Shown here in pieces: positions 595 through 24,919 of a stretch of DNA of 33,136 nucleotides (the first letter of the stretch is position 1; each line of letters starts with the position of its first letter). The position numbers and the translations under genes are program-made. Origin of the DNA: an uncultured Acidobacteriota bacterium. Its GTDB lineage: Bacteria; Acidobacteriota; Thermoanaerobaculia; Multivoradales; SZUA-115. Below the pieces are notes generated by a model, which saw nothing but the letters and a program-made list of their open reading frames with translations, did not search any database and was not told where the DNA came from. Where the stretch lies: assembly GCA_937867335.1 (NCBI GenBank), contig CALMKX010000206.1, positions 1-33,136 on the forward strand, given 5' to 3'.

Positions 595-3261
595 CTACTC
601 CGAGCTCAAGCGCACCGGCGGGGCCAGCGGGCTCCCACTCGAATCGAACCTCTCCTCAAGCACTTGGATGCTGCCATCATCCACTCCCACCTCCGCCCAG
701 CGTACTCGAATTTCGCCGAGAGGCAAGATCTCTACTTCCTGGAGCACCAAGTCGGAGTCGCTCTGGGTTACCGAAATCTCGGCCGTACTCGCTTCACCCG
801 AGGCTGTGAAGGCGCGAAAGGAGAGCGAGGCAGGATTCTTCTCGTCCTCCTCCGTGACCCAGGCCACTACGAAAGAGCTGTCCGGCCCCACGCCGAGCTG
901 GGGAGCATGCTGGTGGCCGGCGGTGGTCTGGTTGACCCGCTTCTCCTCGGACAGCGGCGAAAGCGAGCTGTCGAAGCGGCGCAGGACGATGCTGCCTCGG
1001 TCCCCGTCCTGGCCGTAGCTCGCCCAGGCGGCGAGCAGGTTGCCGGCACTGTCCGTACCCAGGGCGGGCTCGGACTGGTCGTGCTCGGTGGTGCTGTTGA
1101 GCTGAGTCACGGCTCCCCGCTTTCCGGCGCTGGCGTCGAAGGCTTGCGCAAACACCCCCAAGAGGCTGCCATCGAGGCTTTCGGCCTGCCAGGCGGCCAC
1201 GTAGCCAGAGCCGAGGCGAGCCACCCGGGGAGCGCTCGGGAAGGCTCCGGCCTCCTCTGCCAGGGCGGTTTCCACGGGCTCGAGGCCGAGGGCAGGGCTC
1301 GCAAGCGAGAAGTGCAGGCTGCCAGGGCCTGCTTCGCTGGCGGGCTCGGTCCAAACCTGAACTGGATCGGCACCGGAGCCGCTGAAGGGACTAGTCAGCG
1401 CAGCGCCTGTGCGCTGGACTTCCAGGAACCAGTCGCACTTCTGCTCGCCGACAACAGAACAGGTCGGGGGCTGCACCGTCACGCTGCTTGACGTCGCTGC
1501 GCAAGTGCTACTTGGCAGAGCCGTACCTCCGACGGCCGGGAACCAGCGATAAGTCCAGCCGGTGCACGCGAGCCCTGTGAGCGTCTGCTTGCTGATCTGG
1601 ATCTGGTAGGTGGGGGGCAAAGGTGAGACGTCTGCCCCCGGCAGATACGCCAGCACCAGCGAGCTCAAGTCGGAAGCGAGCACCATCTTCTGCTCATGGT
1701 GCGGATCGGCCGGCTGGTTGAGGATCCAGGCCGGGCGGGGGAAGAGCCCCGAGCGGTTGCGGAAGCGGTTGAACAGCAGGCTCATGTCAACCGCCGAAGG
1801 CCTTCCCAGGTCGATGTTCGGCTCGTGCCAGAAGACGAGTTTCGACGCCCCGTAGCTGAATCCCATGGAATTGGAGAGGCTGGAGAGGTAGCCGGCCTGG
1901 CGGACTCGGTAGCGGTTGTCCACGGGGTTGGTGGGGTCGTAGGAGAAAGCGTCGTAGGGGCCTTCTCCGTTGGTGGCGGGCAGCTTGGGGCCGGTGTAGG
2001 CGGAGAGCGTCAAGGGCATCTCGCGGGCCCGGCGCATGGCCGTTTGCACCATGGTTTCAGTCGGCAGTGGCCCCGGGCAGGCCTGGCCGGCGGTGCCCAG
2101 GCCGCCGGTCGCGTGGCCGCTCTGGAAGAGGTAGAAGCTCATCCAGCTCGAGCCGGTGGCGAAGCTCTGGTAGTCCGTGCACAGCGAGCGGCCGGCGAGG
2201 TGGTTGGTGAGGAGCTGGCGAGGGGAGGAAAGCTGCAGCGCGCTACCCACCGTCTGCATCAGGCTGGCCGTGGAGGTGCCGTTCTGGGTGGTGAGGTCCA
2301 GGCGGGTGTCGAAGCCGGGAGAGTAGATCACGTGGTTGCCGGCCAGCCGGGCGGCCAGGTAGCGGGCGAAGTCCTCGGCGTTGGCCGGGTTGGGGAAGGG
2401 GTGAGTGGCGTCGCCCAGGCCCACCGGGTCCGCGACGCCTACCACCACCACTAACAGATCCTGCTGGTTGGCCAGTTCGACCATCTGCTCGAAGGCCTGC
2501 CAGTAGGCGGGGCGGGGCTTGGAGCAGTCGTTGGGGATCGGAGCGGAGGAGCTGCAGCCGGCCACCGTGTCGAAGGAGAAGCCGGCCGCGGCGGGCAGGG
2601 AAGGCCAGCTCTGCCCGGCGCCGCTCCAGGCCAGGGCTGGGGCGGTCAGGAGCACGGTGAAGCCCTTGGCCTTGCGGTCCGCCAGGTAGCTCGCCCAGGC
2701 AGCGGTGTCGCCGTGGATCTCCCGCGGCGGGGCGGTCCAGGCGGTGTCCGCGGCCCAGGAGAAGGGCTGCGAGAGGTCCTGGTAGTACAAAGCGCTGCGG
2801 CTGAGCTGGCCGTCGCCGGTCACGCCGAGGAGCTGGGTAGGCCGCCCGCGGTCGTAGAGCCGCACGCCGCTGGTGGTATTGGCGGTGACGGCGATCGTGC
2901 CGGAGCTGGGGGTCCAGGTGGTACCGGTGGCGCAGCTCTGGCCGCCGGTGGAGCCTGTGCAGGAAGCCACTCGCCAGGTCCAGCTGCCGGCAGGCAGGGC
3001 GGCTCGCACCTTGAAGTTCTTGGGGGCGCTCGCCGAACCCTCCCAGAAGGCGTCCTGGGTGAAGGTTCCTAGGGTGGTGGAGCTGAACTCCACGCGGACC
3101 ACCAGGTCCTTGTAAGGGTTGCCGCCGCCGGTGGTGAAGTCCTTGCTGGAAACCAGGGTCTTCTCCCAGCGGCGCCATTGGGAGACGGTGTCCTGGGCTC
3201 GAGCGGGGAGGGCGGCGGCAAGGGCGAGCAGAGCGATGGCTGCGTAGTTGCGGAGAGTCAT
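595..3261 (-). CDS. Secreted apiosidase-like (DUF5060/DUF4038) glycoside hydrolase with C-terminal repeats
   Basis: An 888-residue exported protein with a signal peptide at 1-22 (ARA-Q cleavage). Residues about 24-135 look like DUF5060, a beta-sandwich found before glycoside hydrolase domains (WRRWEKTL, YKDLVVRVEF, WTWRV). Residues about 165-500 resemble the DUF4038/apiosidase-like TIM barrel: FSWAADTAW (168-175), YLADRKAKGFTVL (192-204), a helix plus strand ending IYSPGFD (312-318), and MGFSYGASKLVFWHEP near 466-481. The C-terminal 170 residues hold repeats of the VNQTT...APQLGVG...FVVAW kind. The family acts on plant or microbial polysaccharide side chains. The usual GGE/GGD-type acidic motif is not clear here, so activity is uncertain. 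The ATG is supported by GGAGG nine bases upstream. Confidence 0.75.
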   Translation of the reverse strand: MTLRNYAAIALLALAAALPARAQDTVSQWRRWEKTLVSSKDFTTGGGNPYKDLVVRVEFSSTTLGTFTQDAFWEGSASAPKNFKVRAALPAGSWTWRVASCTGSTGGQSCATGTTWTPSSGTIAVTANTTSGVRLYDRGRPTQLLGVTGDGQLSRSALYYQDLSQPFSWAADTAWTAPPREIHGDTAAWASYLADRKAKGFTVLLTAPALAWSGAGQSWPSLPAAAGFSFDTVAGCSSSAPIPNDCSKPRPAYWQAFEQMVELANQQDLLVVVVGVADPVGLGDATHPFPNPANAEDFARYLAARLAGNHVIYSPGFDTRLDLTTQNGTSTASLMQTVGSALQLSSPRQLLTNHLAGRSLCTDYQSFATGSSWMSFYLFQSGHATGGLGTAGQACPGPLPTETMVQTAMRRAREMPLTLSAYTGPKLPATNGEGPYDAFSYDPTNPVDNRYRVRQAGYLSSLSNSMGFSYGASKLVFWHEPNIDLGRPSAVDMSLLFNRFRNRSGLFPRPAWILNQPADPHHEQKMVLASDLSSLVLAYLPGADVSPLPPTYQIQISKQTLTGLACTGWTYRWFPAVGGTALPSSTCAATSSSVTVQPPTCSVVGEQKCDWFLEVQRTGAALTSPFSGSGADPVQVWTEPASEAGPGSLHFSLASPALGLEPVETALAEEAGAFPSAPRVARLGSGYVAAWQAESLDGSLLGVFAQAFDASAGKRGAVTQLNSTTEHDQSEPALGTDSAGNLLAAWASYGQDGDRGSIVLRRFDSSLSPLSEEKRVNQTTAGHQHAPQLGVGPDSSFVVAWVTEEDEKNPASLSFRAFTASGEASTAEISVTQSDSDLVLQEVEILPLGEIRVRWAEVGVDDGSIQVLEERFDSSGSPLAPPVRLSSE

Positions 3262-3278
3262 GATGCAGTGCCTCCATG

Positions 3279-3300
3279 GCTATTTTATATTACGAATAGC
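3279..3300 (-). promoter_or_regulatory. AT-rich inverted repeat and likely -10 region upstream of the DUF4038 gene
   Basis: The arms GCTATT (3279-3284) and AATAGC (3295-3300) flank an AT-only core that reads TATAAA or TAATAT on the minus strand, which would serve as a -10 element. It sits just upstream of the GGAGG (3271-3275) of the 888-residue gene in an otherwise GC-rich 126-base gap. No clear -35 hexamer is visible, so this may be a promoter overlapped by an operator, or an AT-rich element only. Confidence 0.35.
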
Positions 3301-3387
3301 ACAGAGGCAGAAAAGCAGTATGGACGGAGTCTGGGCCCGCTCCGGGGCGAAACCGGCGGCTCCCGAGCTCTGAGGCTGCCGGCGGTG

Positions 3388-4515
3388 TCAGGTCGCCCGG
3401 CGGCCGGGCACGGAGGGGCGGCTGTCGAAGAGGTCGTCGGTGAGATGCACCAGCCGATCCACGTTGGCGCTCGCCCTCTCGAGGAGCAACCGTCCCTGGT
3501 CGGCGGTGTAGGAGCCGTGGGCCTCGCGTACCAGCTCGATCGCCCCCTTGATCACCGTGATCGGGTTGCGGATCTGGTGCGAGAGGTTGGTCACCAGCTC
3601 GCTCTGCCGGGCCTTCACGCTGCGGGCGGCGCGGGAGCTGCGGTCGGCCCGACGAACCTGCCGAGCCAGGCGCTGAATCTCGGCCACCAGGTCGTTGGTG
3701 GCTTCCTCCAGCTGGCTCATCAGCCGGCGGTTCTCCACCTCCCGCTGGCGGCGGGCGATGTTCTCGCGCAGCCGGAGCTCCACGACCCGCGGCTTCAAAG
3801 GCTCGAGCAGGTAATCGCTCGCTCCGGCGGCAAGGGCGGAGAGCGCCTCGTCTTCTGTCGCCGCGGGGGTGACCACCACCAGGGAGATGTCCGGCTGGAG
3901 GGCCCGCGCCGCGGAGACGAAACCGGCGAGCGAGGCGTCGTCGCCGGCCACCAGGATCAGGTCCATCTCCTCCTGCCCGAGGGCCGCGAGGGCTGCCTCG
4001 CGGCTGGCCGCGCGCCGCACCCGCTCCGGCCCGCCGGTAAGGTGGGCGCGCACCTCGCGCTCGCTGCGCCGGCCGAGGCCCACCAGGAGGGCGAGCGGCG
4101 CGGGGGCTTGAGGCTGCTCGGCGGGGCGCGCCGAGAGCAACGCCTGGATCTGCTCGATCAAGACGCGCGAAGTGAAGGGCTTTTCGAGGTAGGCGTTGGG
4201 CTGGCGGTCTCGCTGGCTCTCCTGCAGCTGGTTGAGGCAGGAAGCCAGACGGCCGCAAACCGGCGAGGTCATGATCACCGGGATGTTCGCCGTGGTCTCG
4301 CTCGAGCGCAGGCGGCGGGTGAGCTCGAAGCCGTCGAGTTCGGGCAGCACCAGCTCGGTCACCACCACCGCCGGATGAGGTAGGCGGTGGGCCAGGCGGA
4401 GAGCCTTGGCCCCGTCGGCAACCAGCTGGACCTCGAATCCGGCTGCGATCAGAGCCGGCTCGAGGGAACGGCCCAGCTCAAGATCGTCGTCGGCAATGAG
4501 GACTCGAGTCGGCAT
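3388..4515 (-). CDS. Double pseudo-receiver protein with kinase dimerisation (HisKA) domain and no ATPase
   Basis: A 375-residue soluble protein. Receiver 1 (4-125) keeps the acidic pocket D9-D11 and K112, but the phospho-acceptor position is Glu54 (TELVLPELDG) instead of Asp. Receiver 2 (about 138-250) is degenerate: the acceptor position is Ala190 and the conserved Lys is Glu238 (LLEPL). A coiled coil (about 250-300) leads into a HisKA-like helix pair with His313 in SHQIRNP, followed by a second helix ending near 362. The protein stops at 375 with no N, G1 or G2 boxes. Only 126 bases separate it from the next gene, so a frameshifted ATPase domain cannot be hidden there. It cannot autophosphorylate alone; it might be a phosphotransfer substrate, a dimeric scaffold or an inhibitor of neighbouring kinases. 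A promoter lies at 4578-4606. Confidence 0.82.
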   Translation of the reverse strand: MPTRVLIADDDLELGRSLEPALIAAGFEVQLVADGAKALRLAHRLPHPAVVVTELVLPELDGFELTRRLRSSETTANIPVIMTSPVCGRLASCLNQLQESQRDRQPNAYLEKPFTSRVLIEQIQALLSARPAEQPQAPAPLALLVGLGRRSEREVRAHLTGGPERVRRAASREAALAALGQEEMDLILVAGDDASLAGFVSAARALQPDISLVVVTPAATEDEALSALAAGASDYLLEPLKPRVVELRLRENIARRQREVENRRLMSQLEEATNDLVAEIQRLARQVRRADRSSRAARSVKARQSELVTNLSHQIRNPITVIKGAIELVREAHGSYTADQGRLLLERASANVDRLVHLTDDLFDSRPSVPGRRAT

Positions 4516-4577
4516 TCGGAAAGAGATCTCGTCGAGAGTTGTGGCGAGCCCGCTTGTTTAGGTTCGCCAATGTTTCC

Positions 4578-4606
4578 ACACTATGGAGCAAAAGGGAAAA
4601 AGTCAA
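4578..4606 (-). promoter_or_regulatory. Sigma-70-type promoter for the double pseudo-receiver gene
   Basis: On the minus strand a TTGACT -35 (4606-4601) is followed after exactly 17 bases by TAGTGT (4583-4578), about 62 bases upstream of the ATG at 4515. The stretch 4560-4640 is markedly AT-rich compared with its surroundings, as expected of a promoter. Confidence 0.5.
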
Positions 4607-4636
4607 CAAGTGTTACGGCAAATAGATAGAAACAAT

Positions 4637-4650
4637 CCTTTGGCCAAAGG
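4637..4650. promoter_or_regulatory. Perfect 14-bp palindrome, candidate operator
   Basis: CCTTTGGCCAAAGG is a perfect palindrome 30 bases upstream of the -35 box at 4601-4606, in the gap between the OmpR-family regulator (stop 4729) and the next minus-strand gene. Its position suits an activator site. Binding by the adjacent regulator is inference only. Confidence 0.3.
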
Positions 4651-4728
4651 TGGCGCCGACGAAACCCGACCAGTGTAGCAGCTCTGGCGAGCCGCCGCTT
4701 GCCGGCTGAGGAAATTCGAAGCCAACGC

Positions 4729-5451
4729 TCAGGTGGGTTCGAAAAAGCTGTAGCCGGCTCCCCGCTGGGTGATCAAGTAGCGCGGCCGTCCCGGCTCGGG
4801 CTCGATCTTGTGGCGCAGGCGGTGGACGTGCACCCGCAGCGTATCCTCGTAGACTTCCTCGAGGGGCCAGATGCGCCGCAGCAGGAAGTCGCTGCGCACC
4901 GTTCGGCGGGCGCTGCGCATCAGGATGTGGAGGATCTTGGTCTCGGTCGGTGTGAGGGCTACCCGTTGGCTGTCGACATAGGCTTCCTGGTGGGCGAAAT
5001 CGATCGCCAGATGATCGTCCACCCGGGTCACCGGCTCCAGGGTGAAGGCGAAGTCGCCCAGGCGGCGGAGCACCCGCCGCACCCGCGCCGCCAGCTCGAG
5101 GGGGCGGAAGGGCTTGACGACGTAGTCTTCGGCCACGGTGTCGATGGCCTGGATGATGGTCGGCTCATCGTCGACCGCCGAGAGGAAGATCACCGGCACG
5201 TCGCTCGAGCGGTTGAGGTTGTTGCAGAGCTCGAGGCCGGTCATCCCGGGCATCATCAGGTCGACCACCGCAAGGTGAGGCAAACCATGCTGGCGAACCC
5301 AGTCGAGCGCTTCCGGGCCCGAGGAAGCGGTGCCTACTTCGAAACCCTCGTTCTCCAGGGTGAACCGGACTACGCGCAGAATATCCGGGTCGTCGTCGAC
5401 ACAGAGGATGCGCTGACCTTCTTGCGACTCGAAGCTACTGGTCTTGTGCAC
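4729..5451 (-). CDS. OmpR-family winged-helix response regulator
   Basis: A 240-residue response regulator. The receiver (14-130) has the acidic triad D19-D21, phospho-acceptor D64 (VVDLMMPG), and K113 (VVKPF). The OmpR/PhoB winged helix (about 140-238) shows LTPTETKIL, the recognition-helix stretch YEDTLRVHVHRLRHKI, and the wing ending GAGYSF. A GTG at 5451-5449 is chosen as start. The open frame continues upstream to an in-frame TTG at 5514, but that codon lies inside the divergent promoter at 5483-5532. No internal ATG precedes the receiver. It is divergently transcribed from a receiver and kinase block starting at 5558, so its partner is probably the kinase at 6031-8958 or the hybrid kinase after it. 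Confidence 0.88.
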   Translation of the reverse strand: MHKTSSFESQEGQRILCVDDDPDILRVVRFTLENEGFEVGTASSGPEALDWVRQHGLPHLAVVDLMMPGMTGLELCNNLNRSSDVPVIFLSAVDDEPTIIQAIDTVAEDYVVKPFRPLELAARVRRVLRRLGDFAFTLEPVTRVDDHLAIDFAHQEAYVDSQRVALTPTETKILHILMRSARRTVRSDFLLRRIWPLEEVYEDTLRVHVHRLRHKIEPEPGRPRYLITQRGAGYSFFEPT

Positions 5452-5482
5452 GTCGTCGAGTTCTCGTGGAGATGCCGGATTT

Positions 5483-5532
5483 CCGTTCGGTAGACTGCCG
5501 CGAAGTATACTCAAACATTGGATTTCGAACGG
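5483..5532. promoter_or_regulatory. Mirror-symmetric divergent promoter
   Basis: Inverted arms CCGTTCG (5483-5489) and CGAACGG (5526-5532) are exactly centred on the palindrome AGTATACT (5504-5511). Each strand therefore reads CGTTCG, 16 bases, TATACT. TATACT is a good -10 match on both strands, and the arms lie where -35 elements would be. Predicted leaders are about 40 bases to the ATG at 5558 (plus) and about 46 bases to the GTG at 5451 (minus). The two overlapping promoters could not easily be occupied by polymerase at once, so transcription of the two sides may be mutually exclusive or governed by one bound dimer. Confidence 0.5.
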
Positions 5533-5557
5533 GCCGGTATCGCTCGTGAGGGAAAAA

Positions 5558-5959
5558 ATGGACCGGGCACCGCTGCGCAGGATTCTACTCGTTGAAGACG
5601 AGATCGACATCCAGCTGGTCGCCCGGCTGTCCCTGGAGCGCCACGACCGCTTCGAGGTGGCGATCGCGGGCTCGGGCGAAGAAGCGCTCGAGCTGGCCAG
5701 GACCTTCCAGCCGCAGATGGTGCTCCTCGATGTGATGATGCCGGGGCTCGACGGCTTCGGCACCCTGGCCGGCCTCAGGCGCCTGCCGGGCCTGGCCGAG
5801 GTGCCGGTGGTCTTCGTCACCGCCCGGGCCCAGAGCCACGAGGTGGCCGAGTATCGCGCCCTCGGCGCCCTGGAGGTGATCATCAAGCCGTTCGACCCGA
5901 TCAGCCTGGGCACGCTGCTCGAGGAGGTCTGGCAGCAACACCTGGGCAGCGGGTCGTGA
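5558..5959 (+). CDS. Single-domain response regulator (CheY-like receiver)
   Basis: A 133-residue receiver with E13-D14-E15, phospho-acceptor D58 (LLDVMMPG), T88 and K110 (IIKPFDP), and no output domain. The ATG at 5558 has GAGGG just upstream; the frame is open further back but that stretch is the divergent promoter. It precedes the PAS/GAF kinase by 71 bases and is divergent from the OmpR-type regulator. It may be an intermediate receiver in a phosphorelay that uses the Hpt of the downstream hybrid kinase, or act through protein-protein contacts. Confidence 0.88.
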   Translation: MDRAPLRRILLVEDEIDIQLVARLSLERHDRFEVAIAGSGEEALELARTFQPQMVLLDVMMPGLDGFGTLAGLRRLPGLAEVPVVFVTARAQSHEVAEYRALGALEVIIKPFDPISLGTLLEEVWQQHLGSGS

Positions 5960-6030
5960 GATGATTTCGTTTTCAAGGCCGTTGCACAAAGCTGCGGCAG
6001 CCTGAATTCGAGAGCGCCCTCCGGCCATCC

Positions 6031-8958
6031 ATGGAGCGTGAGCCACAGCGAGTCCCGGTGGTGGACCCGCCGAGTCGCATCGGCGGCGGCAGGTATGCGT
6101 GGAGTCTCGTCCTGGCGGTCGGGGCGACCTCGCTCGCGGTGCTCCTTGGCGCCTGGCTCGGCCTCGCCGACTTCCTGGCGCGCTTGTCGGCCGCCCCGGC
6201 AGGGCCTGGAGCCGGCGCGATCCACGTCATCATCGACTGGGTCTCGGTCTGCCTGACCTTCTGCTGCGCCCTTCTGGCCCTCGCCAGAGTGAGAGCCGGA
6301 CGCAGCCGGTCCGCCCACGTGCTGGTGGTATTCCTGCCGGCCATCGCCCTCGCCCAGGCGTTGTGTGCGCTCAGCGGGCCGCTGCTCGCGGGCCGGCTGG
6401 GCCTCGACCTCGGACTCGCCGAAGCCGCCGCCTGGGGCGCGGGCCAGCTTTTGACCAGCATCGCTTACGTTGTTTTCGGCGCCTTGGTCGCGTTGCGCAG
6501 GAGCCAGAGCGCCCAGGCGCTGGGGCGATTCCTGCTCTCGGTGGCCGGCCCGGCCTGTGTGGCGGTGGCTGGCCTCGGGCTGCTGATCGCCACCGGTTCG
6601 CCGCCGTCGAGCGGTATCGAGCCGTGGTCCCTCAGGGTCTGGGACGCCGCCCCGCTGGCACTCTTCCTCGTAGCCGCCGCGCTTTCTTTGCCGCGGCTCG
6701 GCTGGTCCAGCTGCTCTTGGGTGAGCCGTGGCCTGGTGGTGTCCCTGCTTCCCCAGGTGATCGGCCATGCCGCGGCTCTCTTCGGCACCGAGGGGGCGTG
6801 GAGCGCGCCGCGCATGGTGGCCGACCTCGAGCGGCTGATCGCCTTCACGTCGATCTTCGCCGGCCTGATCCTCGAGAGCGTGGAGCTCCACCGGCTGGTG
6901 GAGAAGGTGCGCGCCGAGGCGAGCGCTGCCTACGACGTGCTCGAGGAGCGCACCCGCCAGCTCGAGAAGGTGGACCTCGAGCTGCTGGCCCGGCGGCGGG
7001 ACCAGGAGCTCGTCGAGCAGCGCCTGCGGATGCTCGAGAAGGCGGTGGAGACCATGAGCGTGGGGGTGACCATCACCGACCCCGCCGGCCTGATTCTCTA
7101 CGCCAACCCCGCCGACGCCCGGCTCCACGGCTGGGAGGCCGGAGAGCTGATCGGCCAGCCGGCCGCGGTGTACTCGGCCGCCTCGGGCGCTACCGAACAG
7201 CCCCAGGAAATGATGAGGCTGTGGGCTCGCGAGGGAGTCAACCGCACCCGTCACGGTCGGGTCTTCCCCGTGCGCCTGATCTCGGACCCGGTGCTCGGCG
7301 GCGAGGGCCAGCTGATCGCCATGGTCACCCTCTGCGAGGACATCACCGAGCAGAAGCGCATCAGTGAGTCGATCGAGCGGCGGGATCGCGTGCTCGAAGC
7401 GGTGGGCATGGCCGCCGAGCGCCTTCTGCTCACCGGCAACTGGCAGCAGAGTGTCTACGACGTGCTCGAGCGGCTGGGGCAGGCCACCGGAGTGGACCGC
7501 GTGTACCTGCGCCAGCTCGGTGAGCGCAAGAGCATCGGCCCGGTGAGGAGCACCTGGGAGGCCCGCGGCCGGGACCTCGAGGACTCGGTGGTGCTCGACA
7601 TCCGTCCGCGCACCGAGGTGCTCGAGCTCCTGGGCGACGATCCTCTGGGCGGCGAGGCGCTCCACGGCCTGGTGCGGGAGCTGCCGCCCCACCTGAGGAG
7701 CGGTCTCGAGCGGCGGGGCATCCACTCGATCGCGGTGGTGCCCATCCTGGTGCGCGGCAGGCGCTGGGGCGTGCTTTCGCTCGAGTCTCAGGATCGCGAG
7801 CGGCTGTGGTCGGCGAGCGAGATCGAGGCGCTCAAGACGGCGGCCCGGATCCTCGGCGGCGCGGTCCAGCGCCAGCACGCGGAGGAGGCGCTGATCAACA
7901 GCGAGGCGAACTACCGCGAGCTGATCGAGACCGCGAGCGATCTGATCCAGAGCGTCTCGCCGGACGGCGAGCTGATCTTCGTCAACCGCTCCTGGCGGGA
8001 GGCTCTCGGCTACAAGGCCGAAGAAGTGGTGGGCATGCCGGTGTGGAAGGTGCTGCGGGCCGACCAGCACGACCACTGCCGCCAGGTGATGGGCGAGATC
8101 TTCACCGGCCGCCAGGTGGAGCGCATCGAGACGGTCTTCTGCGCCAAGGACGGCAAGGAGATCCCGGTCGAGGGCAGCCTCTCTTGCCGCTTCCAGAAAG
8201 GTCGCCCCACGGCCACCCTGGGGATCTTCCGCGATGTCACCGAGCGGCAGCTGATCGACCGCATGAAGCAGGATTTCATCTCCACCGTGAGCCACGAGCT
8301 GCGCACGCCCTTGACCTCCATGCTCGGCTCGCTCGGCCTGCTGCAGAGCAAGCGCATGGCCGAGCAGCCCGAGAAGGGGGCGGAGCTCCTGGCGATCGCG
8401 CAGCGCAACGGCGAGCGCCTGCTGCGGCTGATCAACGACTTGCTCGACCTGCAGAAGATGGCGGCCGGGGAGCTCTCGCTGCGCATGGCGGCGGTGACCG
8501 TGGCGCCGGTTCTGGAGGAAGCGATGGACGGCATCCGCGGCTTCGCCGACTCGCTCGGGGTGGTGCTCGAGCTGGAGGACGGCGCGCCGGGGGCACGAGC
8601 CTGGATCGACAAGGAGCGCCTGGTCCAGATCCTCTACAACCTGCTGTCGAACGCCATCAAGTTCTCGCCGGCAGGCCAGAAGGTGAGCATCTCCACGGCT
8701 CGGAGGGACGGGCGGGTGATCATCGCCGTCACCGACCGCGGCCCGGGCATCCCCGAGGAGTTCCGCCAGCGCCTGTTCTCCCGCTTCGCCCAGGCGGACA
8801 ACGCCAACGCTCGCCGCACCGGCGGCTCGGGGTTGGGGCTGTCGATCGTGCGCAGCTTCGTGGAAGCTCTGGACGGCACCATCCAGATCGATTCCGGCGC
8901 CGGCAAGGGGACCACGGTCACTATCGACTTCCCGCTGGCAACCGAGTCTGATCGGTGA
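6031..8958 (+). CDS. Membrane histidine kinase with PAS-GAF-PAS sensory modules
   Basis: A 975-residue kinase. Residues 22-285 hold about seven or eight hydrophobic segments forming an integral membrane sensor similar in shape to MASE-type domains. A coiled coil (285-338) leads to PAS 1 (about 338-445), GAF (455-615) and PAS 2 (622-740). The kinase core has HisKA with His755 in SHELRTP, then HATPase_c with the N box around N870-N874, G1 at D902-GPGI, and G2 GGSGLGLS at 931-938, so all catalytic motifs are intact. There is no receiver domain. Its stop codon overlaps the GTG of the next gene by four bases (GTGA), implying translational coupling to the hybrid kinase. The signal sensed is unknown. 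Confidence 0.9.
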   Translation: MEREPQRVPVVDPPSRIGGGRYAWSLVLAVGATSLAVLLGAWLGLADFLARLSAAPAGPGAGAIHVIIDWVSVCLTFCCALLALARVRAGRSRSAHVLVVFLPAIALAQALCALSGPLLAGRLGLDLGLAEAAAWGAGQLLTSIAYVVFGALVALRRSQSAQALGRFLLSVAGPACVAVAGLGLLIATGSPPSSGIEPWSLRVWDAAPLALFLVAAALSLPRLGWSSCSWVSRGLVVSLLPQVIGHAAALFGTEGAWSAPRMVADLERLIAFTSIFAGLILESVELHRLVEKVRAEASAAYDVLEERTRQLEKVDLELLARRRDQELVEQRLRMLEKAVETMSVGVTITDPAGLILYANPADARLHGWEAGELIGQPAAVYSAASGATEQPQEMMRLWAREGVNRTRHGRVFPVRLISDPVLGGEGQLIAMVTLCEDITEQKRISESIERRDRVLEAVGMAAERLLLTGNWQQSVYDVLERLGQATGVDRVYLRQLGERKSIGPVRSTWEARGRDLEDSVVLDIRPRTEVLELLGDDPLGGEALHGLVRELPPHLRSGLERRGIHSIAVVPILVRGRRWGVLSLESQDRERLWSASEIEALKTAARILGGAVQRQHAEEALINSEANYRELIETASDLIQSVSPDGELIFVNRSWREALGYKAEEVVGMPVWKVLRADQHDHCRQVMGEIFTGRQVERIETVFCAKDGKEIPVEGSLSCRFQKGRPTATLGIFRDVTERQLIDRMKQDFISTVSHELRTPLTSMLGSLGLLQSKRMAEQPEKGAELLAIAQRNGERLLRLINDLLDLQKMAAGELSLRMAAVTVAPVLEEAMDGIRGFADSLGVVLELEDGAPGARAWIDKERLVQILYNLLSNAIKFSPAGQKVSISTARRDGRVIIAVTDRGPGIPEEFRQRLFSRFAQADNANARRTGGSGLGLSIVRSFVEALDGTIQIDSGAGKGTTVTIDFPLATESDR

Positions 8959-11900
8959 CACGCAGCCTCCGCTTGGTGCGGCGGGTCTCGCTCGCCGGGC
9001 TTGGAACGGCGGCCCTGCTGCTGGGCGCCGGGGCTCCGGCAGCGCGGGCCACCGAGCCCCGGTTGTGGCCGGATCTGTCGCAGACAATCTCGCTGCGCAC
9101 CGAGTGGAGCTATCTCGACGCGGACGAGCCCCGCGGCGCGGATCCCGCGCTGGACGACTCGGCGTGGCCGCGCACCACCCTGCCGGGCAAGTTCGTCAGC
9201 GGCGAGGGTGAATCCGGGATCACCTGGTACCGCATCCGGGTGCGTATCACCGATCCCCGGCTCGCGCAGCCGCTCGGCCTCGACCAGCTGGACATCGCCG
9301 CGACCATCGGCAAGGTGAACAGCGCCTACCAGGTCTACGCCGGCGGGCTGCTCTTGGGCGGGGTGGGCCGGCTGCCTCCAGATGCCGAGATCGACTACGA
9401 CCGGCACCGCACCTACCGCCTGCCCAAGGAGGCCGTCGGGCCGGACGGCAGCCTGGTCCTGGCGCTTCGAGTGTGGAAGTCCGAAGGCACCCGCTCGGGG
9501 CGCCGGGGTGCCCCCTACGAAGGGCCGCTTCTCCTGGGGCCCCACGAAGAGCTGCTCCGGCGGGAAGTGCGAGCCGAGCTGCCGGTCTTGCTGTTCGTGG
9601 CCCTGTTCTTCGCGCTGGCGCTCTTCCATCTCGAGGTCTACCAGCGCCGCAAGGGCAACTACGCCTATTTCTGGTTCAGCCTGGCCTCGGCCGAGATCGC
9701 CCTCTACGGCCTCCTGCGCAGCCAATGGAAGTACGCCTTCGGCGACCACTTCATGGTCTACAAGGAGCTCGAGCACGGTTTGATCTACGGCATGCTGGCC
9801 ACGGCCATCCAGCTGATCTTCCCGGTGCTGGGCATGCCGATCAACCGGCTCCTGCGCTTCGCCCAGTGGCTGAGCGTCGCGGTGGGGCTCCTGGTCTCCT
9901 TGACTCCCGGGTTGCGGCTGAACCTCCTGCTGCTGCCGCTCTGGCAGGCGGGCTTGATGGCCGTGCTCGCCTCGGGCCTCTGGCTGGTGGTGCGGCAAGC
10001 CGTGCAGGGCCGCGAGGACGCCTGGATCACGGCCCTGGGAGCCGCCTTCGCCGCCCTGATGTTCGTCCACGACATCCTGGTGGATCGCGGCCGGCTGGAC
10101 CATCCGCGCATCGCCCTGGTGGGCTTCTTCGGCATGATGCTGAGCATCGCGGCGACGCTCGCCCGGCAGTTCCATCGCATGACCACCGAGCTCGAAGCGC
10201 TGCGCGAGGACCTCGAGCGGCGCGTCCAGGAGCGCACCCATCAGCTCTTCGAGGCGAATCAGGCCAAGGGCCGATTCCTCGCCACCATCAGCCATGAGAT
10301 CCGCAGCCCCTTGAACGGCGTCCTGGGCATGACCCAGATGCTGCTCGCCTCGGACCTGAAGCCCGAGCAGCGCCAGTACGCGGAGATCGTTCGCCGTTCA
10401 GGGAGTGTTCTGCTGGCGTTGCTCGACGACATCCTCGACGTCTCGCGCATCGAAGCGGGCAAGCTCGAGCTCGAGCAGCAGGATTTCGACCTCCACGGCT
10501 ACCTCGAGGAGGCGGTGGACGTGTTCTCCAACCGGGCCTCCGAGAAAGGGCTCGACCTCGCCTTCTGGGTGGACCCGGCCCTGCCCCGCCGGCTGCGGGG
10601 AGACCCCTTCCGCCTGCAGCAGATCCTCTTCAACCTGATCGGCAACGCGGTGAAGTTCACCGAGCGCGGGGGTGTCTTCGTGCGCGTGGAGGTGAGCGCG
10701 AAGAGCCCGCCGCCGGCCGAGCGAGTGGAGCTGCGCTTCAGTGTCGAGGATACCGGCATCGGCATCGCCCCGGAGGACGCCCAGCGCATCTTCGAGGCCT
10801 TCAACCAGGTGGATGCTTCGCACTCGCGGCGCTTCGGCGGCTCGGGGCTCGGGCTCGCGATCTGCCGCCAGCTCACCGAGCTGATGGGCGGGCGGATCTG
10901 GCTCGAGAGTCAGCCGGGGAGCGGCTCGGCTTTCCACTTCGAGGTGAACCTTCGCGTGGTGGAGGTCGGCAAGCCCGAGAGCTGGGCCCAGGCCCGGCCC
11001 GAGCTCGCCGGCAAGTCGATCCTGGTGGTCGCTCCAGGTTCGGTCACCCGCAGAGTGCTCCTGGAGCTGTGCCGGCTCTGGGAGATGCTGCCCACGGTGG
11101 TAACCAGCGTGGACGAGGGGCTCGCCCTGGCCGGCGGGCCGTCGCCTCCGAGCTTCGCCGTGCTCGGGCCGGCGGGGGAGGAGCCCTCCTCTCCCGCCCA
11201 GCGGCGGGCGCTGTCGGAGCTCACCCGCAAGCTGCCGACCGTGGCCATCGAGCGGCCGCGCCTGGCCTACGCCGGGGCCCGCGGAGGCGAGAGCGGAGTG
11301 ATGGCCACGGTGCTCGCGCCGGTGAAGCCCCGTGAGCTTCTGGCGGCTCTGCTCGGGCGGCCGGTCGAGGCGGCCGTGCCCAATGCGCTCGTCGCCGCCC
11401 GCGAAGAGGCTGGCACCTCGGCGCGGGCGATCCTGGTGGCCGACGACGAGGAGATCAACCGCCAGGTCTGCCTGCTGATGCTGCGCCAGCTGGGCCTCGA
11501 GGCCGATCTCGCCCGAGACGGCTTCGAAGTGCTCGAAGCCCTGGCCAGGCGGCCTTACGACCTCATTCTGCTCGACATCCGCATGCCCGGCATGGACGGC
11601 CTCGAGACGCTGAGGCGGATTCGCGCCGGCAGCTGGCCGGAGGGCAAGATGCCGCGGGTGGTGGCCCTGACCGCCCACACCAGCGACGCCGATCGCTCGA
11701 GCTTCCTCGCCGCGGGCATGGACGGCTACCTCAGCAAACCGCTGGAGCTCGAGGCCCTGGCAGCGGTGCTTCGCGGGCTGCCGCCGCCGGCCGTCGAATC
11801 GCCGTCGGGAAAGGCGAGCCCGGTCCTCGAGGCGACCATTTTCGACCGCCTCTCGGCCCTGGACGATGGCCGCGGCAGCGTGCAGCGAGACCTCGTGGCG

Positions 11901-12200
11901 CTTTTCGCCCGCCGAGCCCCGACCCAGCTCGACGCCGTGGCCACCGCCTGCGTGGCCGGAGATCTCGCCCAGGCCGCCCGGGTGCTCCACAGCTTGAAGG
12001 GCAGCTCCGGGATGCTCGGCGGCCTGGCCGTGATGGCCTCCTGCGAGGCCTTCGAGCGAGAGCTCGCGAACGGGCCCGATCCGAGCTTGTGGCAGCCCCG
12101 ACTGGTGCGGCTGCAGGTCGAACTCGATCAGCTCCTGGCCGAACTCGATCTGCGGGCGGCCGCCAGCGGGGCCGAGGCGGATACGGCTCCAGGTCCGTAA
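8955..12200 (+). CDS. 7TM hybrid histidine kinase with pseudo-receiver, receiver and Hpt domains
   Basis: A 1081-residue BarA/EvgS-like hybrid kinase. A signal-peptide-like start is followed by an extracellular beta-sandwich (about 40-195; ALDDSAWPR and GITWYRIRV resemble 7TMR-DISM or galactose-binding sensor folds). A seven-helix membrane region (205-405) and a short coiled coil come next. HisKA has His447 (SHEIRSP); HATPase_c has N560/N564, D599 (EDTGIGI) and GGSGLGL (628-634). A receiver-like segment at 687-800 lacks the acidic pocket and acceptor. The true receiver (826-940) has D830/D831, D874 and K928. The C-terminal Hpt has His1012 (LHSLKGSSGML). The GTG start at 8955 overlaps the previous stop. 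It can run a full His-Asp-His relay internally and probably donates to separate receivers nearby. Confidence 0.9.
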   Translation: MTRSLRLVRRVSLAGLGTAALLLGAGAPAARATEPRLWPDLSQTISLRTEWSYLDADEPRGADPALDDSAWPRTTLPGKFVSGEGESGITWYRIRVRITDPRLAQPLGLDQLDIAATIGKVNSAYQVYAGGLLLGGVGRLPPDAEIDYDRHRTYRLPKEAVGPDGSLVLALRVWKSEGTRSGRRGAPYEGPLLLGPHEELLRREVRAELPVLLFVALFFALALFHLEVYQRRKGNYAYFWFSLASAEIALYGLLRSQWKYAFGDHFMVYKELEHGLIYGMLATAIQLIFPVLGMPINRLLRFAQWLSVAVGLLVSLTPGLRLNLLLLPLWQAGLMAVLASGLWLVVRQAVQGREDAWITALGAAFAALMFVHDILVDRGRLDHPRIALVGFFGMMLSIAATLARQFHRMTTELEALREDLERRVQERTHQLFEANQAKGRFLATISHEIRSPLNGVLGMTQMLLASDLKPEQRQYAEIVRRSGSVLLALLDDILDVSRIEAGKLELEQQDFDLHGYLEEAVDVFSNRASEKGLDLAFWVDPALPRRLRGDPFRLQQILFNLIGNAVKFTERGGVFVRVEVSAKSPPPAERVELRFSVEDTGIGIAPEDAQRIFEAFNQVDASHSRRFGGSGLGLAICRQLTELMGGRIWLESQPGSGSAFHFEVNLRVVEVGKPESWAQARPELAGKSILVVAPGSVTRRVLLELCRLWEMLPTVVTSVDEGLALAGGPSPPSFAVLGPAGEEPSSPAQRRALSELTRKLPTVAIERPRLAYAGARGGESGVMATVLAPVKPRELLAALLGRPVEAAVPNALVAAREEAGTSARAILVADDEEINRQVCLLMLRQLGLEADLARDGFEVLEALARRPYDLILLDIRMPGMDGLETLRRIRAGSWPEGKMPRVVALTAHTSDADRSSFLAAGMDGYLSKPLELEALAAVLRGLPPPAVESPSGKASPVLEATIFDRLSALDDGRGSVQRDLVALFARRAPTQLDAVATACVAGDLAQAARVLHSLKGSSGMLGGLAVMASCEAFERELANGPDPSLWQPRLVRLQVELDQLLAELDLRAAASGAEADTAPGP

Positions 12201-12359: not shown

Positions 12360-15242
12360 ATGAACGAGGTCGATCCATCTCCCAGCGCGAGCGCACCGAG
12401 GGCCGAGCCCCCTTCGGGAGCGACGGGTGGCGCTCCTGAGGCACCGGCGCTATCGCGCCTGCGGCCCTTCCGCCGCATCGCCCTGCGCAGCATCCTCGGC
12501 CTGACGGTCGTTTCGGCCGTGCTCCTGGCCGGCGTGCTGCTGGTGATGAACACCGTCGGGCGGCGGCTGCTCATGAAGCAGTCCGCCCGGCGAATCGAGG
12601 AGTACGGCAACCGCAGCGTGGAGGCTCTGGCGGCCCGTACCCGCGAAGTGGCCGCCCTGGCCCGCACGGTGGCGAGAGTGAGCGAGGAGCTGCCCCGCGA
12701 CCGCCGGGTCCTGCTGGAGACTCTGCCGCGGCTGATCGACTTCCAGGGCGACCGCGGGGTGGCCGGTGGCGGCTACTGGCCCGAGCCGGGCTTCTTCGCG
12801 CAGGGAGTGGACCGCAGCAGCTTCTTCTGGGGCCGCAACGCCTCCGGCGAGCTCACGTTCCACGACGACTACAACGACCAGCTCGGCCCCGGCTACCGCA
12901 ACGAAGAATGGTACGTGCCGGCGCGATTCCTGCGCCCCGGAGCGGTGTTCTGGAGCGAGTCCTACACCGACCCCTACACCTACCAGCCGATGGTGACCTG
13001 TACCGCCACCTCCTACCGAGACGGCCACTTCGCCGGCGCCGCCACCATCGATGTCACCCTCGAGAGCCTGGCGGCGCTGACCGAGCGCTGGGGCCGTGAG
13101 GCCGGCGGCTACGCTTTCCTGGTCGACCGAAATAACCGTTTCCTCACCTATCCGCAAGTTTCGAAGATGTGGCACCAGGCGATCGACGACCGCGGCCGAA
13201 CCACCGAGGCGCCGCTGCTCGCCGCCGAGCTGGCCCGCACCGAGCCAAGCTTCCTGCCCCTGACCCGGGTAATGGAGGAGATGGACCTGGCGCTGCTGGG
13301 CAAGGCGAGGTCGGACGCGCGCTACGACCAGGAGCTGGTGGAGCACATCGATCGCGACAGCTACGCCATCACCCGGCCCGAGGCCGAGCTGATCGTGGCG
13401 GGGCTCGCCGATCCCCTGAGCGACCAGCACGAGCGCACCTACCTCGAGCGCACTCTCGCGCTCGCCCGCGACCCGCTGCTGGGCGAGGCTTCACACGGCT
13501 ACTTCTTCTACGTCCCGGGTTCTTATTGGAAGCTGGTGCTGGTGATGCCAGACGCCACCGCCGGAGCGGTCGCCTCGCGCATCTCGTGGCTGCTGGTGCT
13601 CGCTACGGCGCCGATCGTCCTCTTGATCCTCCTGGCCGCCTATGGCTTCACCGTGCGCTCGCTGATCCGCCCCGTCGCCGAGCTCGCGGCGGCAGCGAGC
13701 GCCGTGCAGGAGGGCCGGCTGGACGTGGAGGTCGAGAACCGGCCGCGCAACCAGGTGGGGGCTCTGGTCGTGGCCTTCAACCAGATGATCGCCCGCCTGC
13801 GAGTGTCCACCGGCCATCTGCGGGAGGCCAATCAGCGGCTGGAGCACTCGCTCGACCTGACCCGGGCGATCCTCGGCACCGTCCACGAGGGGCTGTTCCT
13901 GGTCGATGCCGACGGCCGGATCGAGCCCGGCTATTCCGCCGCCCTGACCCGGATCCTGGGCATCCAGGAGCTCGCCGGCCGGGACTTCCTCGAGCTCCTC
14001 GGAGGGCTGGTCTCGCCTCGCGATCAGTCGTTGGTGGAGCGGTTCCTGCGCATCCTCTTCGACGCCGACAAGACCGATGGCCTGGTGGCGAAGGCCAATC
14101 CCCTGCGCCAGGTGGAGGCCCGGCTTCCCAGCGAGGACGGCCTGCCGACCATCAAATACCTGGCCTTCCGTTTCGACCGCGTGCGCTACGGTGGGGCTCT
14201 CCGCCACGCCCTGGTCACCGTTTCGGACGTCACCTCGAAGGTGGAGCTGTCGCGCCGGCTGATGGAGTCCGAGCGCAAGATGCAAGACCAGAAAGAGCTG
14301 GTGGCCAGCGTGCTGCACGTCGAGCCGGCGATGCTCTCGGAGTTCATCGACGGCGTCGAAGCCGAGCTGGTGGCCACGTTGTCGCTGATCGCCCGCTGCC
14401 ACGAGGGCGGCGAGGGTCGCGGCCAGCCCTGCTACCAGGAGCTGCTGGGGCGGATCCTCAAGTCCGTGCACACCATCAAGGGCACGGCGTCGATGCTCGG
14501 CATCGAGTACTTCGCCACCACCGCCCACCACTTCGAGAGCCTGGTGCTCGCTCTTTCCGAGCGCGTCACCCTCTCCGCGCACAGCTTCGACGAGCTCGAG
14601 GACGAAGTGCGGAACATGCTCTCGCACCTGCGTGAAACCCGGGAGATCATCCGCCGCTTCAGCGACGGCCACGCGCCGGAGCGGGTGCGCAGCGACGTCA
14701 GCCTGCTCACCGACGTGCTCGACCGCTACGTCCAGGACCTCGCCCATCGGCACGGCCGGAGCGCGTCCTTCACGCTCTCGGCGGAGGACTCGTTGCGCAT
14801 CCCGTTCGGGCTCAAGACCTCGGTGCGCAACGTGCTGTCGCAACTGGTGCGCAATGCGGTGGTCCACGGCATCGAGCCGCCCGGCGAGCGGCTGCGGGCC
14901 AACAAGGCCCTGGTGGGCAAGGTGGAGGTTCGCCTGGCGCGGGTGAACGGCTGCCTCGAATTCGCCGTGCGCGACGACGGCCGCGGCATCGCGGAATCGC
15001 AGCTGGAGCCCACTCGCGCGGAGTGCTCTTGCGCCCAGAGCACCGCCGAGCGGATTTTCGAGATGGGCAGCACCTCAGCGAGCCAGCCAGGGCTGGACGC
15101 TGGCCGCGGCGTGGGGCTCACGGTGGTCAAGGACCTGGTGGAGAACCTGGGCGGCCGAGTCTCGGTGGATCAGAATCCCGGCCATTTCTGCGAGTTCCGG
15201 GTGGTGCTCCCGGTCGAGCCGCCCGGAGGGCTGCCTTCGTGA
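12360..15242 (+). CDS. Membrane-bound CheA-like kinase: dCache-HAMP-PAS-Hpt-HATPase
   Basis: A 960-residue protein combining a chemoreceptor front end with a CheA-like back end. A proline/alanine-rich cytoplasmic start precedes TM1 (about 42-63), a periplasmic dCache-type domain (75-400; FFWGRNASG, WYVPAR, YTDPYTYQPMVT, GAATIDVTLESL), TM2 (408-430) and HAMP (432-485). A PAS-like domain (495-630) and short coiled coil follow. An Hpt domain (655-765) carries His704 in SVHTIKGTASMLG. The ATPase (818-952) has N832 (LVRNAVVHG, as in CheA), D872/D873 (RDDGRGI) and GRGVGL. There is no SHExRxP-type HisKA and no CheW-like domain, so it probably phosphorylates its own Hpt and then the CheY-like receiver, whose GTG overlaps its stop by four bases. 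The ribosome binding site before 12360 is weak. Confidence 0.88.
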   Translation: MNEVDPSPSASAPRAEPPSGATGGAPEAPALSRLRPFRRIALRSILGLTVVSAVLLAGVLLVMNTVGRRLLMKQSARRIEEYGNRSVEALAARTREVAALARTVARVSEELPRDRRVLLETLPRLIDFQGDRGVAGGGYWPEPGFFAQGVDRSSFFWGRNASGELTFHDDYNDQLGPGYRNEEWYVPARFLRPGAVFWSESYTDPYTYQPMVTCTATSYRDGHFAGAATIDVTLESLAALTERWGREAGGYAFLVDRNNRFLTYPQVSKMWHQAIDDRGRTTEAPLLAAELARTEPSFLPLTRVMEEMDLALLGKARSDARYDQELVEHIDRDSYAITRPEAELIVAGLADPLSDQHERTYLERTLALARDPLLGEASHGYFFYVPGSYWKLVLVMPDATAGAVASRISWLLVLATAPIVLLILLAAYGFTVRSLIRPVAELAAAASAVQEGRLDVEVENRPRNQVGALVVAFNQMIARLRVSTGHLREANQRLEHSLDLTRAILGTVHEGLFLVDADGRIEPGYSAALTRILGIQELAGRDFLELLGGLVSPRDQSLVERFLRILFDADKTDGLVAKANPLRQVEARLPSEDGLPTIKYLAFRFDRVRYGGALRHALVTVSDVTSKVELSRRLMESERKMQDQKELVASVLHVEPAMLSEFIDGVEAELVATLSLIARCHEGGEGRGQPCYQELLGRILKSVHTIKGTASMLGIEYFATTAHHFESLVLALSERVTLSAHSFDELEDEVRNMLSHLRETREIIRRFSDGHAPERVRSDVSLLTDVLDRYVQDLAHRHGRSASFTLSAEDSLRIPFGLKTSVRNVLSQLVRNAVVHGIEPPGERLRANKALVGKVEVRLARVNGCLEFAVRDDGRGIAESQLEPTRAECSCAQSTAERIFEMGSTSASQPGLDAGRGVGLTVVKDLVENLGGRVSVDQNPGHFCEFRVVLPVEPPGGLPS

Positions 15243-21578: not shown

Positions 21579-21603
21579 CGTGGGCTCCAGGCTTCGCTCG
21601 GCT

Positions 21604-23784
21604 TCAGGCGGCCTGCTCGGGCAGACGGAACCGCTGCATCGAGGAGGCCAGCTCGTCGGCCAGCTGGGCCAGGTAGCGCATCGAAGCCGCTGCCTTCTGG
21701 GCGCCGCCCGCCGCCTGGGTGGTGACCTGGGAGATCTGGTTCATCGCCGCCACGGCGCCTTCCGAGCCCCGGGCCTGCTCGCTCGAAGCCTGAGAGATCG
21801 AGTGGATCAGCTGCGCGAGCTGGTTGGAGACCGCCTCGATCTGCCCCAGGGCCTGGCCGGCTTCCTGGGCGACGTTCGAGCCCTGCACCACTTCCTGGGT
21901 GGTGCCCTCCATGGCGGCCACGGCCTCGGAGGTTTCAGTCTGAATCGTCTTCAGCAGCGAAGCGATGGTTTTCGAGGCTTCCGCCGAGCGTTCGGCCAGG
22001 CGTTCCACTTCTTCGGCCACCACCGCGAAGCCTCGGCCCGCTTCCCCGGCCGCGGCGGCCTGGATGGAAGCGTTCAAGGCCAGCATGCTGGTGCGGTCGG
22101 CGATGTCGGAAATCAGCTGCACGATCTCGCCGATCTCCTGCGAGCTCTCGCCCAGACGCTTGATCCGCCGCGAGGTCTCCTGCACCTGGTTGCGGATGTT
22201 GTTCATGCCGGTCATGGTGCGGCCCACGGCCGAGGCACCGCCACGGGCGCTCTTCAGGGCTTCTTGGGCCACCTGGGAGGCGGAGGCGGCGTTCTGCGAC
22301 ACCTGTTGGATGGAGCTGGCCATGGCTTCGATGACGGCGCTCGTCTGGGCGATCTTGAGCGCCTGCTGCTGGCTGCCGCGGGCGAGCAGTTCGGTGGTCT
22401 CCTGCACCCGACCGGCGGTCGAGTTCACCTCGCGGCTGGTGCTCTGCACCTGGCGGATGATGCCCTGCAGCTCGGTGATCATGTAGTTGAAGGCGTCGGC
22501 GATGGCTCCCGTCATGTCCGGCGTGACTTCGGCCTGAGCCGTCAGGTTGCCCTGGGCCACGTCGCTCACCTCGGAGAGCAGCTTCATGATCGCCGCCTGG
22601 ATCGAGTCGCGTTCTTCCTGGCTCTGCATCAGGCTGCGGGTGTTGTCGAGCATGTTGTTGAGGTAGCCGGCCGCGTTGCCGAGCTCGTCGCCCGAGAAGG
22701 CGCGGGCGCGGGTGTCGAGGCGGCCGCCGCCCACCTGGCGGAACACGCGGGTGAGCTCGGCGATCTGGTAGACGATGCCGCGGGCGATGGCGAGGGAGCC
22801 GAAAAGGCCGGCGGCGGCGAGCAGGCTGGACAGCCAGAGCCGGCGGTTGCGGGCGGCCGACGTCTGGTTGACACGGGCGAGCAGCAGCTGGTCCGCCTGG
22901 TCGCGCAGAGTCTCCGAGAGCTCGAACAGCTTGCCCAAGGCATCGCCCCCCTGGCGCAGGTGGTCCTCGAGTCGCACGGAGGGCGTGGTGGCTTCGGCGA
23001 TTCCGGCGCGGGTGGCCTCGGCGAAGCTCGCCGCTTCGCGCAGAGCACCCGAGGCAGCACCGGCCATCTGATCCTGCAGCCGGCCATTGGCCCTGAAGGC
23101 GGCGTTGAGGCCCTTCTGGAACTCCTCGACCGAGCGCTGGATATCGCTCACATCGAGCAGCAGGGCGGCGCGCTCGGCGCTCGTGGGAGCGTTCGGTGCC
23201 ACCAGCAGGCGCGCGCCGTCGGCACGCAGGCGGGAGGCCGCCTGGGTGGCGCGGGGAATCTCCACCAGCAAGCTCGAGATCAAGTAGTAGGAGTCGAGGT
23301 CCGGGTCGAGAATCAGGTTGGAGCCGTCGCCTACGCGGCGGATCAGAGCCGTGGCCGCGCGCAAGGAGTTGTCGAGAGCGGCGAGTCGCCCGTCGGCGGA
23401 AGTCTCGGCGGGCAAGGCCGCGAACGCTTTCCAGGCGCGATCGAGGTCCGCCTGGGCTTCGCTGGTGCCGAGAGTCCGGCCGAGCCGCAGCTCGCGGTCG
23501 GCGACCTGCGCCAAGGCCTGGTCCACCCGCTTCTGCAGCTCGGCATCTTCCGGCGAGCTCCCGGCCGCGGCCTTCGAGCGCAGCTCCAGCAGGCCGTGAA
23601 AAGCCTCCAGGACGGGCTTCAGGTAGCTCAAGCCCTGCCGTTCCTTGGCGGCGAACTGGATGTTGGTGTTGCTGGCGGTGAGGAACTGGAAGGTCAGGAG
23701 GGCGATAGGGATCACGAGCAGGAACACCACCAGGGCGAGCTTGATGGGGATTCGGTTCACCAACTGCTTCAGCTGTTGCAGCAT
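21604..23784 (-). CDS. pilJ: PilJ-type methyl-accepting chemotaxis protein
   Basis: A 726-residue transmembrane chemoreceptor. TM1 is at 14-35, a large helical periplasmic domain at 36-312 and TM2 at 315-338. Two HAMP-like segments (about 338-388 and 395-447) precede a long signalling coiled coil. The hairpin tip spans about 567-605 ([31 protein letters not shown]). The continuation [21 protein letters not shown] closely resembles Pseudomonas PilJ. The N-terminal periplasmic stretch [10 protein letters not shown] also recalls PilJ. It probably signals to the CheA encoded next, through the CheW encoded just before it. The ligand is unknown; the periplasmic domain could meet the polyamine-binding proteins encoded downstream (inference). 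Confidence 0.92.
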
Positions 23785-23833
23785 CCAGTCCTCTCCTCAA
23801 AAGCGCCAGGCCGCAGGGCTCGGCCGGGAAGCG

Positions 23834-24499
23834 CTAGCGAATGGCACTCCAATGAAGCTCCATGTCCTGGCTCATCCCGGCCAGGAGTCGATCCGCCGCC
23901 AGCACGGTGAGGTTTCCGTCCTCCGCCGTCTGGGTCGCCGCCGCGAAGGGGGTGTCGATCGCTCGGGTCGTCTCCGACCTCGCGGGCGTGGCCAGGCGCA
24001 GCCCGAGTACCCGCTCCACCAGGCAGCCGGCGGCCCAACTCCCAGACTCCACCACCAGCATGCGAGCCGTTCGCAGCTCGGAAAGCGGCTGGCCGGTGAG
24101 GAAATCCCCCAGGTCCACCACGGCCAGGATCTCGCCGCGCAGATTGCACAGGCCGTGGAGCCAGCGCGGGGCCCTCGGAATGGGGGCGAGGCCCGGCGCG
24201 TCAACGATCTCGGCCACCGCCTCGAGATTGCAGGCGAAGCGGCCTCCCGGGGTCTGGACGGCGATCAGGCGGAAGGCCTCGACGGGTTCCGCCTGGGTCG
24301 CTGGCTGCGTCGGCTCGGCTGCTGGAAGCGCCGCCGCGAACTCCTCGGGCGCGGCTCTCTCGCTCGCCACCCCTTGCGGGGCGGGCGAGGAAGCCTCCGG
24401 AGGCGCAACGGTGGGGCGCTCGCCCCAGGCCAGGCGAAGGGACTCGAGCAGCTCCTCGAGGGGATCGGATCCGCCTCCCCCTGAAAACGGTTGGGACAT
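23834..24499 (-). CDS. cheW: CheW-family coupling protein (PilI/PixI-like)
   Basis: A 221-residue protein whose C-terminal part (about 75-215) is a CheW domain: FRLIAVQTPGGRFACNLEAVAEIV, IPRAPRWLHGLCNLRGEILAVVDL, and a second barrel ending near DRLLAG. The first 75 residues are Pro/Ala/Glu-rich and probably disordered; CheW proteins are normally about 150-170 residues, so this extension is unusual. The ribosome binding site before the ATG at 24499 is weak. It lies 32 bases after the pilH-like gene and 49 bases before pilJ, as expected for the linker between that receptor and CheA. Confidence 0.9.
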   Translation of the reverse strand: MSQPFSGGGGSDPLEELLESLRLAWGERPTVAPPEASSPAPQGVASERAAPEEFAAALPAAEPTQPATQAEPVEAFRLIAVQTPGGRFACNLEAVAEIVDAPGLAPIPRAPRWLHGLCNLRGEILAVVDLGDFLTGQPLSELRTARMLVVESGSWAAGCLVERVLGLRLATPARSETTRAIDTPFAAATQTAEDGNLTVLAADRLLAGMSQDMELHWSAIR

Positions 24500-24906: not shown

Positions 24907-24919
24907 GGGAATCCCTCTC

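Follow-up and report, generated by a model that had tools for sequence, protein, structure and literature searches.

P0001, a gene on the minus strand (positions 3388–4515) of the 33,136-nucleotide stretch of DNA analysed here as the window, encodes two successive pseudo-receivers, a long helix and a HisKA domain, without an ATPase domain, as judged from translation, Pfam and codon composition. We read the product, with a probability of about 0.4, as a constitutive, kinase-dead DHp phosphatase or adaptor acting on the neighbouring system, with its receivers fixed in one state. Since the parts that start a signal have been lost and the residue that removes one has been kept, P0001 is a possible dedicated brake on the adjoining system.

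A HisKA Domain Without an ATPase Domain

The HisKA/DHp hairpin (residues 304–364; 3424–3606, minus strand) is matched by Pfam with 48.5 bits against a cut-off of 26.9. Besides the two receivers, the AlphaFold2 model shows a helix spanning residues 242–331 and another spanning 338–364, so that the DHp hairpin is complete. Pfam found no HATPase match in P0001, the reading frame of which stops 11 residues past the DHp, and none of the ATPase motifs (N, G1 and G2 box) is present in any frame of the approximately 130 nt between the stop codon and the next gene. Loss of the ATPase domain by a frameshift or an assembly break was rejected, since no downstream frame holds a motif, the gene lies internal to the contig, and the gene downstream begins at 3261, 126 nt away.

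The H-box reads H313-Q314-I315-R316-N317 (3565–3579, minus strand) and thus has Gln at the position essential for the kinase reaction and Asn at the phosphatase position (H-box comparison; PMC3510030). His313 is encoded by CAC (3577–3579, minus strand), and Arg316, Asn317 and Pro318 are likewise kept. The genome itself has 21 HisKA matches, 20 of them with a readable H-box; Glu or Asp stands at H+1 in 19, and the one remaining is the Gln of P0001. P0001 is also the sole HisKA gene of the genome to reach its stop codon without an ATPase domain; the frame of one further gene runs off a contig end. Among the roughly 100 H-boxes read across the compared loci, H+1 is Glu or Asp in 98 and Gln in P0001 alone, while two readings of Val are probably pattern errors. 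Two features mark a functional HisKA kinase, a HATPase_c/CA domain after the HisKA domain and an acidic H+1 residue, and P0001 has neither. The sequence mark of a HisKA-type phosphatase, Thr or Asn at H+4 on a DHp hairpin, is present as Asn317 on the modelled hairpin.

P0001 therefore appears unable to autophosphorylate: an ATP-binding domain is missing, without any remnant, and Gln314 takes the place of the acid beside His313. This agrees with a preliminary description of this DNA, in which His313 stands without any ATPase. Taken with Asn317, the missing ATPase domain and Gln314 amount to two independent losses of kinase function with retention of the phosphatase residue. Gln314 and Asn317, which that description did not mention, would point to dephosphorylation rather than phosphorylation in trans.

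The closest functional comparison is CrdS of M. xanthus (motif H-E-I-R-N), in which E372Q kills the kinase and leaves the phosphatase intact, while N375A loses the phosphatase and keeps the kinase (PMC3510030). The engineered, kinase-dead and phosphatase-competent E372Q variant carries an H-Q-I-R-N sequence identical to that of P0001; however, CrdS is equipped with a membrane sensor as well as an ATPase domain, whereas in P0001 the change is natural and the ATPase domain absent. For EnvZ and NtrB, the isolated DHp is reported to be sufficient for phosphatase activity, with a constitutive phosphatase phenotype in vivo (PMC3510030). Since the ATPase domain strongly raises the phosphatase activity of both proteins (PMC3510030), the isolated DHp of P0001 may be a weak phosphatase. 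A ChrS variant without its ATPase domain acted as if the phosphatase function were lost, working positively (PMC9491836). Retention of His313, which a phosphatase does not strictly need, likewise counts against this role.

Two Pseudo-Receivers and a Signalling Helix

Receiver 1 (residues 3–130; 4126–4509, minus strand) is defined by Pfam, by the receiver alignment and by the modelled strands and helices of residues 3–129. Its Pfam Response_reg match covers residues 5–123 and lies above the cut-off, the score over the whole of P0001 being 68.7 bits (cut-off 30.2). At the phospho-acceptor position, translation and receiver comparison place Glu54 (codon GAG, 4354–4356, minus strand), so that the domain is a pseudo-receiver, a PF00072 match without a phosphorylatable Asp. 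The pocket around Glu54 is intact, with Asp9 and Asp10, Ser84 at the Thr position, Lys112, Tyr109 (K-3), Pro58 (D+4) and Gly62 (D+8) all in place; Ser84 is followed by a Pro in place of the small residue typical of receivers. Among the 43 receivers compared in the genome, taken as PF00072 matches, Glu54 is the sole Glu at the phospho-site, the other 42 having Asp (40), His (1) or Asn (1).

About 2.0% of receivers are without the phospho-site Asp (PMC12632262), and Glu is the commonest substitute, found in 26% of them (PMC4395418); by these rates Glu54 alone is uncommon, but neither extraordinary nor unique. Measured against a recent review, in which some 80% of the pseudo-receivers catalogued no longer have the second acidic residue (PMC12632262), the pocket of receiver 1 is unusually intact and has undergone one main change. 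It shares with other Glu pseudo-receivers the replacement of the Asp and differs from most of them in keeping the rest of the pocket. The proposal that Glu54 mimics the phosphorylated state is plausible in view of the surrounding pocket; the further step to a permanently "on" protein does not follow, since an Asp-to-Glu change often activates only in part and certain natural examples have refuted the idea (PMC12632262; PMC4395418).

Receiver 2 (residues 140–262; 3730–4098, minus strand) is degenerate. Its acidic pair is lost, and the positions of the Asp and the Lys are taken by Ala190 (GCC, 3946–3948) and Glu238 (GAG, 3802–3804, both minus strand). By itself it scores 24.2 bits in the PF00072 search, under the family cut-off, and it is recognised in its position, by alignment and by an alpha/beta fold in the model. 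The preliminary description had named Glu54, Ala190, Glu238 and His313 as the key residues of a receiver-receiver-HisKA protein without an ATPase domain; all four are correct at codon level, and translation and Pfam profiles bear out the anatomy.

A continuous signalling helix (residues 242–303; 3607–3792, minus strand) leads in the model from receiver 2 into the HisKA domain. The model has a mean pLDDT of 85 and a pTM of 0.46, at which the placement of the domains is unreliable; PDB fold searches gave, as expected, receivers and tandem receivers like those of PleD. The layout of receiver, signalling helix and DHp is that of LvrB and other Rec-controlled kinases (Rec-DHp-CA; PMC13269768). In LvrB, phosphorylation of the receiver drives the linking helix into a coiled coil (PMC13269768). 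However, the receiver of LvrB can be phosphorylated on its Asp and the ATPase domain works, whereas P0001 has Glu54 and Ala190 at the acceptor positions and no CA domain.

Gene, Neighbourhood and Relatives

The open reading frame of P0001 comprises 375 codons and starts with an ATG at 4515 in the translation of the window; the plus strand of 3388–4515 is not the gene. Its GC content at the three codon positions (0.76/0.48/0.89) matches that of the adjoining genes, so that P0001 looks like an intact gene. A consensus promoter scan of 3200–6100 found none. Downstream on the same strand lies a gene for an apiosidase-like glycoside hydrolase with DUF5060 (595–3261).

Upstream on the same strand is an OmpR/PhoB-type response regulator (4729–5451, minus strand; Pfam), a candidate substrate, orthologues of which occur at 50–69% identity across the order. 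It is followed by a single-domain response regulator (SDRR; 5573–5959, plus strand; Pfam and synteny), a second candidate, and by a PAS/GAF sensor histidine kinase with complete HisKA and ATPase domains (6031–8958, plus strand; Pfam), orthologues of which adjoin the regulator elsewhere. These three genes form a cassette found together in several families of the order (loci L167–L175 and L182) in varied relative orientations, and often accompanied by a hybrid histidine kinase with receiver and Hpt, here at 8955–12200 on the plus strand (Pfam and synteny). In one family of the order, f6, the cassette kinase bears two C-terminal receivers. No gene like P0001, with a REC-REC-HisKA order, was seen at the related cassette loci. 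P0001 has thus been added next to the regulator of a two-component cassette that is otherwise conserved, and this cassette would be its likeliest partner. The DHp of P0001 shares approximately 28% identity with that of the PAS kinase, so that it is not a recent copy, and its first DHp helix (alpha-1) is not notably similar in sequence to that of the cassette kinase, a point against pairing with the neighbouring regulator.

No orthologue of P0001 was found in 59 relatives, a set of 149 genomes of the class, 396 sampled genomes of the phylum, GTDB contigs or plasmids; the searches instead matched hybrid kinases of the ordinary type, NtrC-type regulators or single receivers, and among the genomes searched the gene is present in one only. 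Neither an orthologue with Asp54 nor, downstream of the gene, an ATPase remnant came to light. Over its full length P0001 is closest to six REC-REC proteins from its own phylum (L079–L083 and L123), at 20–25% identity. In these proteins (from genomes of families f20 and f46), whose C-terminus is kinase-like, Gln, Thr, Glu or Ser stands in place of the DHp His; both receivers keep the Asp and the ATPase motifs are degenerate, so that they appear to be tandem-receiver pseudokinases. They resemble P0001 in their tandem receivers, a similar linker helix and the position of the DHp, whereas in what was kept and what was lost P0001 is their reverse, having lost the receiver Asp and kept the DHp His. 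An insertion in receiver 1 is shared with the L079 family and is ambiguous. An origin from the tandem receivers of the f6 HK-REC-REC kinases was rejected, since these are no closer to P0001 than unrelated receivers. A REC-REC gene beside the cassette at locus L175 reads as Hpt-REC-REC-GGDEF and is no orthologue.

Receiver and HisKA domains without an ATPase domain are already catalogued in archaea, and Glu pseudo-receivers are common. P0001, in which REC and HisKA are present and HATPase is absent, falls into the class "REC-HisKA, no HATPase", and is thereby like the archaeal "HisKA, no HATPase" regulators (PMC5847659), an example of which is AF_1472 of Archaeoglobus fulgidus, entered in P2CS as a "possible incomplete histidine kinase" (PMC5847659). 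The archaeal proteins, however, also bear PAS/GAF domains, whereas P0001 is bacterial and has a second pseudo-receiver, a Glu at the phospho-site and a Gln at H+1. The combination of tandem pseudo-receivers with H-Q-x-x-N was not found in the open-access papers searched.

A Putative Brake on the Neighbouring Cassette

On this reading P0001 would be a dimeric adaptor made up of the receivers and the DHp of a Rec-controlled histidine kinase, minus the ATPase domain. Its receivers are unable to accept the normal phosphoryl group on Asp, and receiver 1, whose pocket is intact apart from Glu54, probably locks the dimer and the signalling helix in one conformation. With the receivers fixed, the activity of P0001 would be set by its expression level. 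Asn317, which in HisKA proteins places the water that dephosphorylates the bound regulator, may serve the same reaction here, so that P0001 would be a dedicated, signal-independent phosphatase or docking partner that reduces the phosphorylation of a regulator nearby, the likeliest targets being the OmpR-type regulator (5451–4729) and the SDRR (5573–5959). We infer the dimerisation, the phosphatase activity, the target and the effect of Glu54 on a fixed state from sequence, the model and the comparisons above. The sharper version, a natural stand-alone and always-on regulator phosphatase with an ATPase-less H-Q DHp, a retained Asn and tandem pseudo-receivers locking its shape, added to the cassette as a brake set by expression, is possible but somewhat doubtful.

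Among the alternatives, a non-enzymatic scaffold or modulator has the best claim, although we regard it as unlikely. Here the DHp would heterodimerise with a complete kinase such as that at 6031–8958, or the receivers would dock on it, and its activity would be altered as with DivL, truncated ChrS or Osp. Indeed, ChrS without a working ATPase domain boosts signalling via a partner kinase in a manner that requires the DHp (PMC9491836), Osp, a single receiver resembling a regulator, binds the transmitter of CckA and thereby inhibits this kinase (PMC9430884), and the kinase next door to P0001 is complete. However, the low DHp identity to that kinase lends heterodimerisation no sequence support, and a pure scaffold has no need of the catalytic residues His313 and Asn317.

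Retention of His313 together with the rest of the H-box (Arg316, Asn317 and Pro318) would also suit a phosphotransfer hub or sink, in which His313 is phosphorylated in trans, as the preliminary description proposed, by the ATPase domain of another kinase or from a phosphorylated regulator and the group is then passed on, as by Spo0B, ChpT or an Hpt domain, and the archaeal proteins without HATPase have been proposed to accept phosphate (PMC5847659). Such a role has a rather low probability, since the acid that activates the His for attack on ATP is Gln in P0001, a change that in CrdS (E372Q) leaves the kinase dead (PMC3510030), and the hybrid kinase at 8955–12200 already supplies an Hpt domain to the cassette. 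Decay is not favoured: a duplicated Rec-controlled kinase on its way out, having lost its ATPase domain and phospho-sites, would account for the lack of orthologues in the class set and the sampled phylum genomes and for the loss of two receivers, of the residue that the kinase needs and of the ATPase, but it is improbable given the intact frame of 375 codons, the neighbour-like codon bias, the absence of any ATPase remnant, the conserved fold of the model, the otherwise intact pocket of receiver 1 and the retained phosphatase residue.

The mechanisms of pseudo-receivers "remain a mystery" according to a 2025 review (PMC12632262), and none of the archaeal HisKA regulators without ATPase had been studied experimentally as of a 2018 census (PMC5847659). 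With the residues that start a signal gone and the one that removes it kept, P0001 offers a clean test of whether such proteins are dedicated phosphatases; its candidate substrates adjoin the gene, and the predictions hang on the single residues Asn317, Gln314 and Glu54.

Other Genes in the Window

Beyond the hybrid kinase, a gene at 12360–15242 (plus strand) encodes a Cache-HAMP receptor fused to Hpt and HATPase, with no HisKA match, and is followed by a receiver gene; the parts fused to the receptor are CheA-like. A chemosensory cluster at 18846–28566 (minus strand) comprises CheA (with two Hpt stretches, CheW and a receiver), an MCP, CheW, CheY, two DUF4388 proteins and further receivers. 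Finally, an RHS fragment that ends in Ntox16 and the DUF6714 gene after it (31529–33005, minus strand) look like a polymorphic toxin and its possible immunity gene.
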